26,527 nucleotides of DNA from a virus, in the IMG/VR virus record IMGVR_UViG_3300046454_000984, positions 1 through 26,527 of that record; one strand, written 5' to 3'. The position numbers and the translations under genes were made by a program. A model generated the notes under the pieces. That model was not told where the DNA came from. It did no database searches and saw only the letters and a program-made list of their open reading frames with translations. Each line of letters starts with the position of its first letter. Positions within the stretch are counted from its first letter, which is position 1. Positions 2,744-20,421 of the stretch are shown here, piece by piece.

Positions 2744-3124
2744 GTGCGCTCCTTCTCCGGATCCGGGGGGGCGGTCTACCTGCTCGGGGATCCCGTGACG
2801 AACGGGGTCTCTGAGCCGTGGCGCCCGCGCGCGCTGCTCGCGAAAGTCGCGCGCTGGGGCATGCGACTCAACGAGAACGTGTTCGTGGCACCGACGATGG
2901 GCGCCGACTCCGTCCATGTCAAGCCGCAGCCGACGACCGCACGTCTCGAGGTCGAGGAGATCACCGGCATTGAGGTGGCGACCGGCGACGAACTGCTGGT
3001 CGAAATGCCCTTCATGGGCGGCAGCATCCGCGGCGTCGTCGAGGTGACGACGTCCGTGGCAAACCAACTGCAGGGCGACCCCCTGCTCATCGACGACCTG
3101 AAGGAGGTCGAGTATGTCCAGTGA
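2744..3124 (+). CDS. Uncharacterised tail-module protein (126 aa)
   Basis: GTG at 2744 lies two bases after the major tail stop; the same-frame extension to 2501 only shadows that gene. The protein starts MRSFSGSGGAVYLLGDP and is mainly beta by pattern ('TTARLEVEEITGIEVATGDELLVEMPFMGGSIRGVVEV'), with no motif I recognise. It lies between the tail tube protein and the tail assembly chaperones and overlaps the next ATG by 11 bases. It could be an accessory tail protein; function unknown. Confidence 0.65.
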   Translation: MRSFSGSGGAVYLLGDPVTNGVSEPWRPRALLAKVARWGMRLNENVFVAPTMGADSVHVKPQPTTARLEVEEITGIEVATGDELLVEMPFMGGSIRGVVEVTTSVANQLQGDPLLIDDLKEVEYVQ

Positions 3125-15191: not shown

Positions 15192-15541
15192 CCGACTTGA
15201 TGACTGAGCTGAAAGAAGCAAACGCCCGGTGCGAGCGGTGGGCTGAGGACTGCGAGAAGGCGCTGGGCCACATCGCCAGGTTGGAGGCTGAGCGGGACGA
15301 GGCGAAAACGCTGCTTCGTGAAGGCTTGGTGTCTGCTGCTCGGGCCTGCGAGCACGTAGAGGCTGAGCAGGATGACGAGATAGCTCGTCGTGTCGCGCTC
15401 GAACAGGATCGCTCTGATTGGAGAGAGCGCGCCATCAGGCTGCGGGCAGCACTTACCCGTGTTGACTCGGCGTGCGAGGCACTCAGTGACGAGGACGCTG
15501 CTTTCATCCGTGCTGCTCTGGCTGGCGAGGAGAATCCGTGA
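15188..15541 (+). CDS. Coiled-coil protein 1 of a tandem pair (117 aa)
   Basis: GTG 15188 overlaps the upstream stop. The chain is heptad helix nearly throughout (ANARCERWAEDCEKALGHIA, 'RLEAERDEAKTLLREGL', 'EQDRSDWRERAIRLRAALTR'). It shares the DNA block that encodes RLEAERDE with the next gene and ends in AALAGEENP, whose GAGGAG codons serve as the SD of the next gene. The similarity suggests duplication. Function unknown; a structural or scaffold role is only a guess. Confidence 0.65.
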   Translation: MTDLMTELKEANARCERWAEDCEKALGHIARLEAERDEAKTLLREGLVSAARACEHVEAEQDDEIARRVALEQDRSDWRERAIRLRAALTRVDSACEALSDEDAAFIRAALAGEENP

Positions 15542-15542
15542 G
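15512..15542 (+). repeat. Gene-junction repeat, copy 1
   Basis: The 31 bases over the end of coiled-coil gene 1 and the start of gene 2 match the junction at 15937-15967 at 28 of 31 positions. They encode the AAL.GEE(N/K)P end of one protein, hold the SD (GAGGAGAA) and reach into the start codon of the next gene. A looser third copy lies at 16256-16292. Confidence 0.75.
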
Positions 15543-15966
15543 CGTTGAGAACGTCCAGTATGCCGAGCAGTTGCTAGCGCGCGTCGCCGAGTTGAAGGCT
15601 GAGCGGGACGAATGGCGTGAAACGGCTGGGCGCTGGCGGCGAGACAACGACGTTCTTGTTCTTCAGGTCGCCAGGTTGCGTCGTCAGTACATGGACGCAG
15701 CCGAAATCATGGAGGCTGAGCGGGACAAGCGCATCGCCGAGTTGGAGGCTAAGTGGCCGTGCGAGAAGGCCGAGGCGCGGGTCGCCGAGTTGGAGGCGAT
15801 GGCCTTCGGCGTAGACGGGCAGACGTTGCAGGCCCGCATCGCCGAGTTGGAGGCTGAGCGGGACAGGCTGCGGGCGACTCTCGGCCGAATACGGAACGCC
15901 CCTTGTTCCCATTGTTGGGGAAACGAGTGGGCTGATGCTGCTCTGACTGGCGAGGAGAAGCCATGA
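15538..15966 (+). CDS. Coiled-coil protein 2 with repeated AELEAERD units (142 aa)
   Basis: GTG 15538 overlaps the upstream stop. The sequence holds four near-identical units ('RVAELKAERD', 'RIAELEAKW', 'RVAELEAMA', 'RIAELEAERD'), copied in DNA as (g/a)tcgccgagttggaggct and followed in part by gagcgggac. This suggests recent expansion by slippage or recombination. The C-terminus has CSHCWGNEWADAALTGEEKP with one CxxC and the junction end motif. The protein is probably a long helix; function unknown. Alternative: a variable-length spacer or decoy protein. Confidence 0.65.
   Translation: MSVENVQYAEQLLARVAELKAERDEWRETAGRWRRDNDVLVLQVARLRRQYMDAAEIMEAERDKRIAELEAKWPCEKAEARVAELEAMAFGVDGQTLQARIAELEAERDRLRATLGRIRNAPCSHCWGNEWADAALTGEEKP
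15583..15868 (+). repeat. Degenerate tandem repeats within coiled-coil gene 2
   Basis: Copies of the block tcgccgagttggaggct start near 15584 (with 'aag' for 'gag'), 15734, 15781 and 15840; a fifth related copy lies in the upstream gene at 15272-15301. Two copies are followed by gagcgggac. Copies are in frame, as expected of expansion of a coiled-coil heptad unit. Confidence 0.7.
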
Positions 15967-16297: not shown

Positions 16298-16592
16298 CAC
16301 CATTCTCAGTTGTCCGAACTGCGGACTAGAACATCGTCTGGTCGCGGACAATGTGGTGGAGCACCGTGACGCCCTGATCCGTGCGGGTGACGTGCTCGCC
16401 ACCCGGCTAGACGAAACACCCGTGCCATCGCGCTTCGGGTTCGAGGATCTCGACAAGGCAAAGATGCAGCAGCAGGCGGTGCGAGAATGGCTCGCCATAG
16501 CCCACCCAAACGGGGAAGGCCACGTAGACGCGACCACGGTCGGCGAACGCGGCGAACGATCGGGCATGACGTGGGACGAAGCGACAGAATGA
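16290..16592 (+). CDS. Protein with N-terminal CPNC half-ribbon (100 aa)
   Basis: ATG 16290 lies 8 bases inside the upstream gene with the repeat-borne SD. Near the N-terminus is ILSCPNCGLEHRL, one CxxC typical of half a zinc ribbon; no second pair follows, so metal binding would need a dimer or His residues. The rest is charged and helical (LDKAKMQQQAVREWLAIAHP) with a His/Asn-rich end. Function unknown. Confidence 0.6.
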   Translation: MYDTILSCPNCGLEHRLVADNVVEHRDALIRAGDVLATRLDETPVPSRFGFEDLDKAKMQQQAVREWLAIAHPNGEGHVDATTVGERGERSGMTWDEATE

Positions 16593-16819
16593 CGCTGCAC
16601 GTTCTCCGTGTCCGTACCCGTGAGATTCGCCGGAAGCCCGTCGGCGAACGCTGGTGCTTCAACTGCCGCAAACGGCTAGAGCACGCAATCGTGGTCACGG
16701 CGCCCGTCGACCCGATGAGCTACTACGGCCCGAATTGGGCGTATGAATGCGCGCGCTGCAAGGGCGACCACGTTGATTTTCCGGGCTGTTTCTCAGGTCG
16801 GGAATGGGCGGACGAGTGA
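16589..16819 (+). CDS. Small zinc-ribbon protein (76 aa)
   Basis: ATG overlaps the upstream stop. Two CxxC pairs (RWCFNCRKRLEH and YECARCKGDH) are 35-40 residues apart with a basic N-terminus (LRVRTREIRRKP), as in zinc-ribbon miniproteins. Nucleic-acid binding is likely by analogy. One of several Cys-pair miniproteins in this half of the window. Confidence 0.6.
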   Translation: MTLHVLRVRTREIRRKPVGERWCFNCRKRLEHAIVVTAPVDPMSYYGPNWAYECARCKGDHVDFPGCFSGREWADE

Positions 16820-17034
16820 CGTCGCGTGAGAGGGCATGGGCCACGCCTGTCCCGGCTCTCTCACGGGGCGCCACCCGAGACGCGACACTCCGCTCTCTCC
16901 CCAGGGCGGCGCTCCACAGGTTGCCGCGCCCGGGCAGGTCAGCGGGAGAGCGGCGGGGCTATGCAGGTTCGACTCCTGCCCCCGCTGACTACATCACCCG
17001 GACAGCCGCCTACCCCGAGTCAGGCGAGCGGTGA
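16816..17034 (+). CDS. Gap-bridging ORF (72 aa), coding status doubtful
   Basis: GTG 16816 overlaps the upstream stop and the TGA (17032-17034) overlaps the sbcD GTG, so the ORF fills the gap exactly. The product is Arg/Ala/Pro-rich (MTSRERAWATPVPALSRGAT ... RLPRPGRSAG) and lacks a recognisable fold. The DNA underneath contains the two-hairpin element and the tRNA-like hairpin, and the 2-base indel between the two element copies shifts this frame. So selection here appears to act on the nucleic acid; this may be a carrier frame for ribosomes. Confidence 0.3.
   Translation: MTSRERAWATPVPALSRGATRDATLRSLPRAALHRLPRPGRSAGERRGYAGSTPAPADYITRTAAYPESGER
16826..16915 (+). ncRNA. Two-hairpin element, copy A (upstream of sbcD)
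   Basis: P1: GTGAGAGGGC (16826-16835) pairs with GCTCTCTCAC (16855-16864), 10 bp with one G-U. P2: 16865-16876 (GGGGCGCCACCC) pairs with 16904-16915 (GGGCGGCGCTCC), 11 of 12 bp with one G-U and one mismatch. P1 and P2 abut and could stack. The P2 loop and its 3' strand are nearly the same sequence as copy B at 18168-18276, differing by a CT duplication and one base over about 31 bases. Stem partners differ while pairing is kept. Confidence 0.5.
16938..16989 (+). other. tRNA-like minihelix (T-arm present, anticodon arm missing)
   Basis: GCAGG-TTCGACT-CCTGC (16963-16979) is a perfect T-arm. Just upstream, GGTCAGCGGGAGAGCG looks like a tRNA D-arm, but only ten bases lie between it and the T-arm, so no anticodon arm fits. 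GTCAGCGGG (16938-16946) pairs over 9 bp with CCCGCTGAC (16981-16989), closing a hairpin of about 52 bases. No CCA is encoded. It may be a tRNA remnant, a tRNA mimic or an RNA-processing signal. Confidence 0.4.
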
Positions 17035-18155
17035 GAATACTCCTCGCATCCGACCTCCAACTCGAATCCGGACAGGCGCTCGGGCACGGCGAGTACGGGC
17101 CCGGCAGCCGCTTCGCAGACCAGGAAGCCATGCTCGACCAGATCGCGCGCATTGCCGTGGCCGAAGGCGTGCGGTTGGCGATCCTAGCCGGGGACACGTT
17201 CGACCGCTCGAAGCCGTCGCCGTGGGCGATCCTTGCGCTGCAGAAGTTCCTCGCCCACATCGACGAGGCGATCATCATCTCCGGCAACCACGACGTCAAA
17301 TCGCTGGCGTTGCCGTCCGTGCTCGGCTGCTTCGAGGACGCCAATCACGTCGAGGTGTTCGACAAGCCATCCGTCAAGATCGTGGAGAACGAGTTCCGCA
17401 TCAGCATGCTCCCATGGATGCCGTCAGCCGCGTTCGACGCGGCTGGGCCGACAGACCGGGATGAGCGCAACGACTGGATCGGCCAGAAGCTAGGTGCCGT
17501 CGCGCGGGAACTCGGCAACCATCACTTCGACGGCCGCCGCATCCTGATCGGCCACTGGTCGATCCGCGGCGCCTCCACGTCCACCGGCATCGGCGTGGAC
17601 GTGTTCCGCGAGCCGCTCGTCCCGCTGGAAGCGCTCACGTCCGGCTACGACCTTGTCGCGTTCGGTCACATCCACAAGATCCAGGTGCTGAACGAGACCC
17701 CGCCCGTCCTGTACTTAGGCGGCCCGTGGGTGAACAACTTCGGGGAGGCGAACGAGCCGCACGGCGTCTGGATATACGACACCGAACTGCCCGAGATGCG
17801 CTTCGTGCCGGTCAAGGACCCGCGGAAGTTCGTGACGGTCGACCTCGAACCATACGACGCACTGCCCGATGATCTGGCTGACACGGTCGTACGTATTCGC
17901 TACACCGTCACCGAGGATGAGGCGCAACAGATCGACCAGGCTGGCATCCGCAAGGCAGCCGCAGAGAGCGGCGCGCACAAAGTCTTCATCCAGCCGACCG
18001 TGCTGAAGAAGAGCCGGGCACGCATCGAAACGTCGGCGGAGGCGCTGGACGACGGCCAGACCGTCGACCTATGGCTCGAGCTCGACCGCCCATCGCCAGA
18101 CCGGCGGAAACGCATCCTCGCCTTGCACGACGAGATTCGGGACGGGATCATCTAA
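17031..18155 (+). CDS. sbcD: SbcD/Mre11-like nuclease subunit (374 aa)
   Basis: GTG start giving MRILLASDLQLESG, in line with the usual 'MRiLh.SDwHLG' start. Calcineurin-like phosphoesterase motifs follow in order: D8 (motif I), GDTFD 54-58, GNHD 85-88, GHW 174-176 (H175) and GHIH 212-215. Motif I has Gln10 where the metal-binding His normally sits (SDLQ instead of SDxH). The C-terminal third would dock onto the ATPase subunit. With the downstream SbcC it should form a dsDNA-end nuclease that trims or opens hairpin ends in replication and recombination, like T4 gp46/gp47. Gene order (nuclease first) is standard. The rest of the active site is intact. Confidence 0.9.
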   Translation: MRILLASDLQLESGQALGHGEYGPGSRFADQEAMLDQIARIAVAEGVRLAILAGDTFDRSKPSPWAILALQKFLAHIDEAIIISGNHDVKSLALPSVLGCFEDANHVEVFDKPSVKIVENEFRISMLPWMPSAAFDAAGPTDRDERNDWIGQKLGAVARELGNHHFDGRRILIGHWSIRGASTSTGIGVDVFREPLVPLEALTSGYDLVAFGHIHKIQVLNETPPVLYLGGPWVNNFGEANEPHGVWIYDTELPEMRFVPVKDPRKFVTVDLEPYDALPDDLADTVVRIRYTVTEDEAQQIDQAGIRKAAAESGAHKVFIQPTVLKKSRARIETSAEALDDGQTVDLWLELDRPSPDRRKRILALHDEIRDGII

Positions 18156-18280
18156 TGATCGACGCTGCGCGACGGGGGCACACTACAACGAGATCCGGGA
18201 CGACTCGCTGTATGCCTCCGTCGCGGAGCGCCGACTCGAGTCGGACGACACTCCGCTCTCCCCAGGTCGGCGCTCCTTGA
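18155..18280 (+). CDS. Gap-bridging ORF (41 aa), coding status doubtful
   Basis: ATG 18155 (TAATG overlap with the sbcD stop) runs to TGA 18278-18280, overlapping the sbcC TTG. The product is Arg/Thr/Ser-rich (MIDAARRGHTTTRSGTTRCM ...), with no fold. The frame that continues into sbcC has higher third-position GC here but no ATG, GTG or TTG. The segment contains copy B of the two-hairpin element. As with the ORF before sbcD, it may act only in translational coupling. Confidence 0.25.
   Translation: MIDAARRGHTTTRSGTTRCMPPSRSADSSRTTLRSPQVGAP
18168..18276 (+). ncRNA. Two-hairpin element, copy B (abuts the sbcC start codon)
   Basis: P1: CGCGACGGGGGC (18168-18179) pairs with GCCTCCGTCGCG (18214-18225), 12 bp with one G-U. 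P2: GGAGCGCCGAC (18225-18235) pairs perfectly with GTCGGCGCTCC (18266-18276), sharing one base with P1. A 14-base palindrome (18231-18244, CCGACTC/GAGTCGG) offers a competing fold. The P2 3' strand ends right before the TTG of sbcC, so the fold covers the usual SD region. The shared block with copy A runs 18246-18276. Confidence 0.55.
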
Positions 18281-20421
18281 TACCGCTGCGTCTCGCAGCC
18301 TCGCACTACGGGCCGTACGAATCCCTGTCGTGGCAACCGCCGCGCGGCCTCACCGCCATCCTCGGACAGAACGCGGGCGGCGAAGGCATCTCGTCGAACG
18401 GAGCTGGCAAGACGAAGCTCCTCGAGATCCTCCCGATCGCGTTGTTCGGACCGCGGCTGCCGTGGGGTGAGTACGTCACAACAGGCACCGTCGAGGAGAA
18501 GTGCACGGTCGCGCTCGAGTTCGAACATCGCGACTACCAGTACAAGGTCGTGCGCAACTTCGATCCCCGCGGACGCGGCAAGACTTCGCTCGACCTGAAC
18601 TTGCTCGGCGACGACCTGCAGTGGATCCCGATGACCCGCGAGTCCCAGTCCGAGACGCAGAAGGTAATCGACGATCTGCTCGGCATGAGCGAGGAGACGT
18701 TCTCCCAGTCCGTGTTCGCCGCGCAGGGCGCTCAGCATTTCGCCGACCCTGCGCTCACTCCGGCGCAGCGCAAAGCGGTGCTGTCGGAAGCGCTCGGACT
18801 CGACGAGTGGGCGCGGTTGGCCGCTGCCGCCACCGAGCGCCGCCGCCTCGCCGAGGCGGAACAGGAGAAGATCGCCGCTAGCCTCGGCGACCGCCCCGAC
18901 CCGGAGACCGTGGCCGCGGTCGAGACATCGCTCATGGAGATGAACAACCAGAAGATGAACCTGGAGGCAGACCTCGCCAAGATCGAGGAGGCGCTCGGCA
19001 TCGCCCGCGCGCGCGCCGAAGAGATTGCCTTGGCGGTCGCCCGCCGCCTAACACTGGCGGCCGAGCACGAAGCCGCTAAGGCCGACTTCAAGCGGATAGA
19101 CGAGATCGTCCGGCAGGGCGTGCGCGCCCGCGAGTTGGCTACCGAACTGCTGCCGCAGATCGCGGAGGAGTCGAAGATCGCCGCGTCCGTCCCCGAGCTC
19201 GAGGCGGAACTGGAGCGACGCCGCGTGGCTGACGGACTCATCGCGGAGCGCGACCGACGCCGAGTCGAGGGACGAGCTCTTGCCGCGCGCGCCGAGTCGT
19301 TCGCACAACGCAGCAGCGATGTAAACGCGCAGATCGCCGCGACCGAATCCCAGGCCTTCGCTGTCTGCGATCGCTGCAACCGGCCGGTCGACGACGCCTC
19401 CCGCGAGACCGTGCTCAACAGTCTCCGCCGCGACTTCATCACCCTGCAGCAGGAGCTCGATCGTCTTGCGGCTGAAGCCCAGAACGAGTTCGATCTCGCC
19501 GACGCTATCATCGTCCGACCCGGCGACGACATCTCGACGTCGGACGTTCAGGCGATGCTGTCCGCCGCCCGCCAGTCCGCAGAAACCCTCGTCCGCCTCG
19601 AGGAACGCTACGAGGCTGTGGGCGCCGTCCTCGCCGACACCGAACAGGAATCCCTCAGCGACGCGCACCGTGCCGCCACCGAGCGACTGGCGCAGGCAGA
19701 GCAGGCTCGAGGAGCGTCCGTCGCGGACGCTGAACCCGACCTGGAATCCGTCAACTCGATCGAGTCCGCCGCCAAGCTGAAGCGCGACCAGTTGATCATG
19801 CTGGCCGCCAGCCAAGGGGCCGCAAAGGAACGGCTCGAAACTTTGCAGCGCGCGCGCGCCGAAACCGACGATGCCGCCGAACGATTGGAAGGTCTCAACC
19901 TCGAGATCGCCGACCTCCGCTACATGGAGCTCATGTACGGCCGGGACGGCATCCCCGCGCTGCTCCTCGAAGGGCAGGCGATCCCGCAGATCGAGCAGGA
20001 GGCCGAACGCGTCCTGCGCGCCCTCGGCACGAACTTCCGTGTCGAGCTCCGCACGCAGCGCGACCTGAAAACCGACGCCGACCGCAAGAAGGAAACGCTC
20101 GACGTGATCGTGTCCGACGACGCCGGGGAGCGGTCGTACGCGTCGTTCTCCGGCGGCGAGCGCACCCGGATCAACCTGGCGCTCCGCATCGGTCTTGCTC
20201 GCTTGATTGCGAGTCGCAAAGGTGCGGACATGCGAACGCTCTGCCTCGACGAACCCGAGTTCCTCGACGCGGAAGGGTTGCGTCGGCTGCCGGAAGTGCT
20301 GCGCTGCCTCACCGAGTTCGACACGGTGCTCGTGATCTCCCACGACGAGGCGCTATCCGACCAGTTCGACCAGACCGTCACCGTCGTCCGCGACGGAGAA
20401 CGATCCACGGTGCAGGCATGA
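18277..20421 (+). CDS. sbcC: SbcC/Rad50-like SMC-family ATPase (714 aa)
   Basis: TTG start gives MIPLRLAASHYGPYESLSW, the classic SbcC N-terminus. Walker A is SSNGAGKT (residues 39-46) within ILGQNAGGEGISSNGAGKT, slightly longer than usual between 'GqN' and 'GKT'. A long coiled coil follows with the zinc-hook CDRC (C364/C367) near the middle, then the coiled coil returns. The signature is FSGGERTR (about 624-631), Walker B LCLDEPE (D658, E659) and the H-loop VISHDE. At 714 aa it is compact beside bacterial SbcC (about 1000 aa), as in phage gp46-type proteins. It works with SbcD on DNA ends. An unusual hairpin abuts its start. Confidence 0.92.
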   Translation: MIPLRLAASHYGPYESLSWQPPRGLTAILGQNAGGEGISSNGAGKTKLLEILPIALFGPRLPWGEYVTTGTVEEKCTVALEFEHRDYQYKVVRNFDPRGRGKTSLDLNLLGDDLQWIPMTRESQSETQKVIDDLLGMSEETFSQSVFAAQGAQHFADPALTPAQRKAVLSEALGLDEWARLAAAATERRRLAEAEQEKIAASLGDRPDPETVAAVETSLMEMNNQKMNLEADLAKIEEALGIARARAEEIALAVARRLTLAAEHEAAKADFKRIDEIVRQGVRARELATELLPQIAEESKIAASVPELEAELERRRVADGLIAERDRRRVEGRALAARAESFAQRSSDVNAQIAATESQAFAVCDRCNRPVDDASRETVLNSLRRDFITLQQELDRLAAEAQNEFDLADAIIVRPGDDISTSDVQAMLSAARQSAETLVRLEERYEAVGAVLADTEQESLSDAHRAATERLAQAEQARGASVADAEPDLESVNSIESAAKLKRDQLIMLAASQGAAKERLETLQRARAETDDAAERLEGLNLEIADLRYMELMYGRDGIPALLLEGQAIPQIEQEAERVLRALGTNFRVELRTQRDLKTDADRKKETLDVIVSDDAGERSYASFSGGERTRINLALRIGLARLIASRKGADMRTLCLDEPEFLDAEGLRRLPEVLRCLTEFDTVLVISHDEALSDQFDQTVTVVRDGERSTVQA

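Follow-up and report, generated by a model that had tools for sequence, protein, structure and literature searches.

Two related two-hairpin elements, copy A (16826-16915) and copy B (18169-18276), flank the sbcD gene of an uncultured virus and, judging from their base pairing and modelled folds, probably act as functional structures in the + strand mRNA. Structured RNA acting on sbcD and sbcC is the best-supported class of explanation because pairs are kept between the copies, the wobble positions fit the + strand, and there is more structure than coding constraint would give. Within this class, the two copies are tentatively read as structured translational-coupling spacers that would tune SbcD and SbcC output. 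In the relatives seen, the sbc genes overlap the end of the upstream gene or start shortly after it, and both joints are here replaced by matched structured spacers. If the coupling reading is true, the locus is a compact, testable case of an operon gaining and copying translational control over both subunits of a nuclease of the Mre11-Rad50 type, and A and B may define a new RNA family of soil phages.

The DNA studied, a stretch of 26,527 nucleotides (hereafter the window), matches bases 3022-29548 of a 63,064-base IMG/VR contig except at two positions in 26.5 kb. Phage structural genes lie on it, together with an early operon to which sbcD and sbcC belong; both of these genes have non-AUG starts and weak Shine-Dalgarno (SD) sequences (Table 1). 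The sbcD and sbcC gaps aside, all but one of the operon joints between 15015 and 20591 are stop-start overlaps of -4 or -8, a type of spacing that is among the most enriched in prokaryotes and typical of coupled genes (PMC12548453). Several other features of this DNA merit mention. Adjacent small genes at 15248-15864 of the window have repeated coding motifs (AELEAERD-type), which suggests duplicated coiled-coil genes. A strong GC palindrome at 2996-3022 of the 63-kb contig lies where the window contig begins and is probably the cause of the shorter contig's break at that point. Outside the window, dense GGAAC/GTTCC repeats with long, origin-like palindromes overlap an open reading frame (L010 10400-10640; 30400-30640 of the 63-kb contig), and an 81-bp repeat of 79% identity (33498-33578 and 34552-34632, also L010) precedes two small genes with a -10-like TACTGT or TACTTT and looks like a repeated promoter.

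Table 1. Structural elements, bridging mini-ORFs, and sbc genes, in window coordinates
Feature	Position	Strand	Description
Copy A hairpin P1	16826-16864	+	16826-16835 / 16855-16864, 10/10 pairs; pair probability 1.0 in three contexts
Copy A hairpin P2	16865-16915	+	16865-16876 / 16904-16915, 11/12 pairs; inner stem; conserved loop and 3' strand 16883-16915
Copy A alternative hairpin	16904-16934	+	P2 3' strand GGGCGGCGC with downstream GCCGCGCCC
Copy B hairpin P1	18169-18224	+	18169-18180 / 18213-18224, 12/12 pairs
Copy B hairpin P2	18225-18276	+	18225-18236 / 18265-18276, 12/12 pairs including one U-G; flush with the sbcC start codon
Mini-ORF over gap A	16816-17034	+	72 codons; from a GTG overlapping the upstream stop (GTGA) to a TGA overlapping the sbcD start (GTGA)
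Mini-ORF over gap B	18155-18280	+	41 codons; from an ATG overlapping the sbcD stop (TAATG) to a TGA overlapping the sbcC start (TTGA)
sbcD	17031-18155	+	GTG start, weak SD; PHROG 100, E 9e-35
sbcC	18277-20421	+	TTG start, weak SD; PHROG 77, E 2e-70

The coordinates, sequences, and pairing given in a preliminary description of the locus are as described there, including a shared block (16883-16915 and 18246-18276) that differs by CT and one base and a copy B whose last base directly precedes TTG 18277. When the 63-kb contig is searched against itself, the two P2 hairpins come out as one repeat (58 bp, 83%, E 2e-5); each is 51/52 nt long and has two helices and an asymmetric internal loop. The same two-stem design indeed recurs in both gaps, and the likeness had been understated, as the P1 stems align pair for pair with three double changes. 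The paired strands proposed earlier hold as well, with a correction of register: P1 of copy B had been drawn to share G18225 with P2, and P2 of copy B has 12/12 pairs rather than 11/11.

The copies differ in how firmly P2 folds. P2 of copy B is stable across all contexts tried, whereas P2 of copy A is mostly displaced at 300 nt of context by a hairpin with downstream sequence and is back at 600 nt. The top pair probability of this alternative hairpin is 0.84-0.86 in contexts of up to 300 nt and 0 at 600 nt. Because P2 of copy A competes with another hairpin, a mechanism common to A and B is not secure. Between copy A and sbcD (16937-16990) lies a separate hairpin that resembles a tRNA T-arm and acceptor (GTCAGCGGG ... 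GCAGGTTCGACTCCTGC ... CCCGCTGAC); neither ARAGORN nor Rfam calls a tRNA gene there, and the hairpin may be what is left of a tRNA or of an attachment site.

Folding energies set both copies apart from dinucleotide shuffles, a comparison proposed at the outset as a means of refutation (MFE z of -3.51 for A and -5.79 for B). The minus strand gives z values of -6.9 for B and -1.5 for A, so the strand is not settled by energies alone. In a GC-regressed scan of the 63 kb, copy B falls within one of the most structured 100-nt windows on either strand, whereas copy A does not stand out. Against synonymous resampling, the structure of copy B has a z of about -4 in both frames tested, and that of copy A a z of -1.9 to -3.4.

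Pair conservation is clearest in P1. When the P1 stems are aligned pair for pair, 10/10 shared pairs are kept, with a G-U at the same place and three double changes (U-A to C-G, G-C to C-G, and A-U to G-C). Placing the observed 3' changes at random preserves all pairs in 6 of 3240 cases (0.19%) in the best gap register, and in 0.008-0.21% over all gap registers. A fully paired P2 of copy B arises in 1 of 36 placements. The inner stem of P2 has two double changes in a MAFFT alignment that fits the structure, but the P2 counts as observed are reached by 142 of 500 column shuffles, two sequences being too few for strong statistics. The non-Watson-Crick positions of P1 and the outer P2 stems read G-U on the + strand and A-C on the - strand, with the exception of one A-C in P2 of copy A, and this bias makes the mRNA the likely working form.

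Comparison with relatives places the spacers late. Of the closest relatives found, one (L018/G002; capsid 70%) has a syntenic sbcC that is about 40% identical; a second (G014, L184; capsid 71%) has its sbcC and a helicase gene on the strand opposite sbcD, about 13 kb away. In both, the sbc genes are without such spacers and begin at the end of the upstream gene or shortly after it. The junctions in L018 read GCATGA at the sbcD-sbcC joint and GGTAATG ahead of sbcD; the one ahead of sbcD in G014 reads TTTGATG. The sbcC start of G014, GTGATCCCGCTGCGC, is close to TTGATACCGCTGCGT of the window. Because these relatives have the capsid and sbcC genes yet are without the spacers, the latter most likely represent later, lineage-specific additions.

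A covariance-model search of phages had been proposed at the outset, with a lack of more copies counting towards refutation, and none were found by covariance model or DNA search. The model detects no third copy in the 63-kb parent contig and returns chance-level matches only over 37 capsid relatives, 35 loci, and 76 pattern-selected loci; a DNA search finds no copies in phages and plasmids; and no Rfam family matches at E<=1 over the window. With no Rfam match and no more copies, the covariation rests on two sequences. The best covariance match (L251, E 0.13) sits within a coding gene on the opposite strand and was set aside, as were pattern matches in bacterial genomes, which are chance coding (in two Actinoplanes genomes, the codons of a gene). 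The alignment of five SbcD proteins is too diverse to serve as a search query. A target-site duplication was also considered, given suggestive sequence to the left of both copies (start-like for B, GTGAGA for A), and was rejected since the similarity is not significant.

Each gap is bridged by a mini-ORF (Table 1), a feature that is new relative to the preliminary description, which missed both. The overlaps at both ends are -4/-1, the kind that links the operon. Among shuffled gaps with start and stop codons fixed, such bridging occurs in 4.0% (A) and 0.3% (B), in a test designed post hoc, once the pattern had been seen. Neither mini-ORF has a coding signature by codon score, with values of -0.28 (A) and -0.52 (B) bits per codon compared to +0.2 to +0.6 for reference genes. 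Thus, if the mini-ORFs are translated, their effect would come via the act of translation and not the product.

These features fit together, tentatively, in a coupling scheme, in which this phage lineage would have gained a related pair of structured mRNA spacers where sbcD and sbcC begin. The mini-ORFs re-establish the run of stop-start overlaps that links the operon. Ribosomes from the upstream gene would translate the mini-ORF through P1 and P2, stop at the codon overlapping the sbcD or sbcC start, and then re-initiate. The hairpins, possibly together with a factor binding the conserved P2 loop, would lower and tune ribosome flow, and those of copy B may also block direct ribosome entry. 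As an outcome, SbcD and SbcC dosage would be set relative to the upstream genes and to each other. For copy B, a coupling spacer would explain why sbcC has no usable Shine-Dalgarno sequence and why its start is heavily structured, with an MFE of -44.6 over the 95-nt initiation region, the second lowest among 29 genes; folding in context nevertheless predicts a largely unpaired start codon. The coupling link is weaker for copy A, whose P2 trades with the alternative hairpin by context and whose hairpins stop 115 nt short of the sbcD start, so that they cannot mask that start directly. Of an RNA switch setting the subunit ratio, as suggested earlier, the structured RNA is borne out by the kept pairs and + strand wobbles, and the switch and ratio are not, given no Rfam match and no more copies.

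The strongest rival, although an unlikely one, is an intercistronic processing or mRNA-stability signal of the RNase III type, by which host RNase III would cut P2 and/or P1, split the sbcD and sbcC messages, and leave protective hairpins. This model explains the positions of A and B equally well, since both lie exactly at the junctions around sbcD, and P2 resembles the 60-nt R1.1 signal between genes 1.0 and 1.1 of T7 (PMC6121014). However, structured spacers are common, and the one-sided conservation of primary sequence is not required by the model.

A transcription element read by RNA polymerase, such as a put-like antiterminator or a U-less attenuator, is a rather improbable alternative. 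In HK022, putL and putR likewise form a pair of sites, each about 70 nt long with two adjacent stem-loops, and are partly similar in sequence (PMC9378689); P2 of copy A, for its part, has a mutually exclusive alternative hairpin. Yet a second such site within one operon, 1.4 kb from the first, would be redundant. Moreover, positions 16400-18500 have no + strand promoter-like (sigma70-type) site, although the host's promoters may differ, and no U-tract terminator (0 sites with a hairpin followed by a T run), and Rfam gives no match.

A similarly doubtful explanation places the function in DNA, with repeated palindromic boundaries that let sbcD move as a cassette, or with palindromes produced by template switching, and involves no RNA function. 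A direct repeat on either side of sbcD and the wide separation of sbcC and sbcD in G014 agree with mobility, as does, weakly, an apparent partial repeat of the sbcC start left of B (ATGATCGACGCTGCGC vs GTGATCCCGCTGCGC of G014), which 3% of NTG sites match as well. On the other hand, template switching gives perfect palindromes, whereas the wobbles here are kept as G-U on the + strand, and the flank similarity of A and B is not significant. The recombination site entertained in the preliminary description has no positive evidence except the direct repeat.

Autogenous control appears quite improbable: a hitherto unseen phage RNA module of a mini-ORF and two abutting hairpins would have been copied to both sbc starts and bound by SbcCD, which cuts hairpins, or by another phage protein, holding the subunits at a set ratio. 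Equally remote is a coding remnant or peptide, with copy B as a small-protein tail or an N-terminal extension of SbcC (AHYNEIRDDSLYASVAERRLESDDTPLSPGRRS). Copy B does look coding-like in the SbcC frame (0.195 bits per codon), a score reached by 0.1% of off-frame gene windows and by 1.5% of shuffles (4.5% over six frames). Nevertheless, that frame has no upstream ATG, GTG, or TTG, the SbcC of relatives starts MIPLRL or MNPL, no homologue is found in phages, Pfam, or PHROGs, and the structure exceeds synonymous variation. Copy A is coding-like in no frame, which leaves the LSPGRRS peptide, raised earlier as a possibility, unsupported there. Chance is the least probable reading: a GC-rich spacer with a decayed duplicated segment would fold readily and there are only two copies, but the shuffle z-scores, the repeat E-value, and the compensated P1 pairs speak against it.

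An RNA element is thus supported, with no known family assigned. Sites of the attC type are defined by GTT/AAC ends, and these are not seen in the sequence, so an attC-like cassette site was rejected. T4 gene 60 exemplifies translational bypass; a bypass of this style was likewise discarded, the matching GCTGCG stretches being out of register between the two frames. Cluster K mycobacteriophages have SAS/ESAS, an inverted repeat beside the start codons of a subset of genes (PMC3203893), which is similar in placement. The present elements differ in having two copies only, two hairpins, and only copy B beside its start codon, and the 13-bp SAS/ESAS sequence GGGATAGGAGCCC is absent before 17031 and 18277 on reading the sequence. 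The HK022 put RNAs share the two related copies, adjacent stem-loops, and partial sequence similarity; they belong to an early transcript downstream of a promoter and contact the β' zinc-binding domain of RNA polymerase for antitermination, whereas A and B lie inside an operon, not beside a recognised promoter, and show no detected family similarity. The T7 R1.1-type RNase III signal is alike as an irregular intercistronic hairpin, about 50-60 nt in length, that contains an asymmetric internal loop, and A and B, as putative cleavage sites, differ from it by the second abutting hairpin and high GC. Overlap translational coupling with a hairpin-masked downstream start (PMC12548453) is matched in the -4/-1 overlaps at both ends, the weak starts, and the structure upstream of the sbcC start. 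What distinguishes the present locus from that system is a separate mini-ORF with two hairpins between the coupled genes, in a module present twice.
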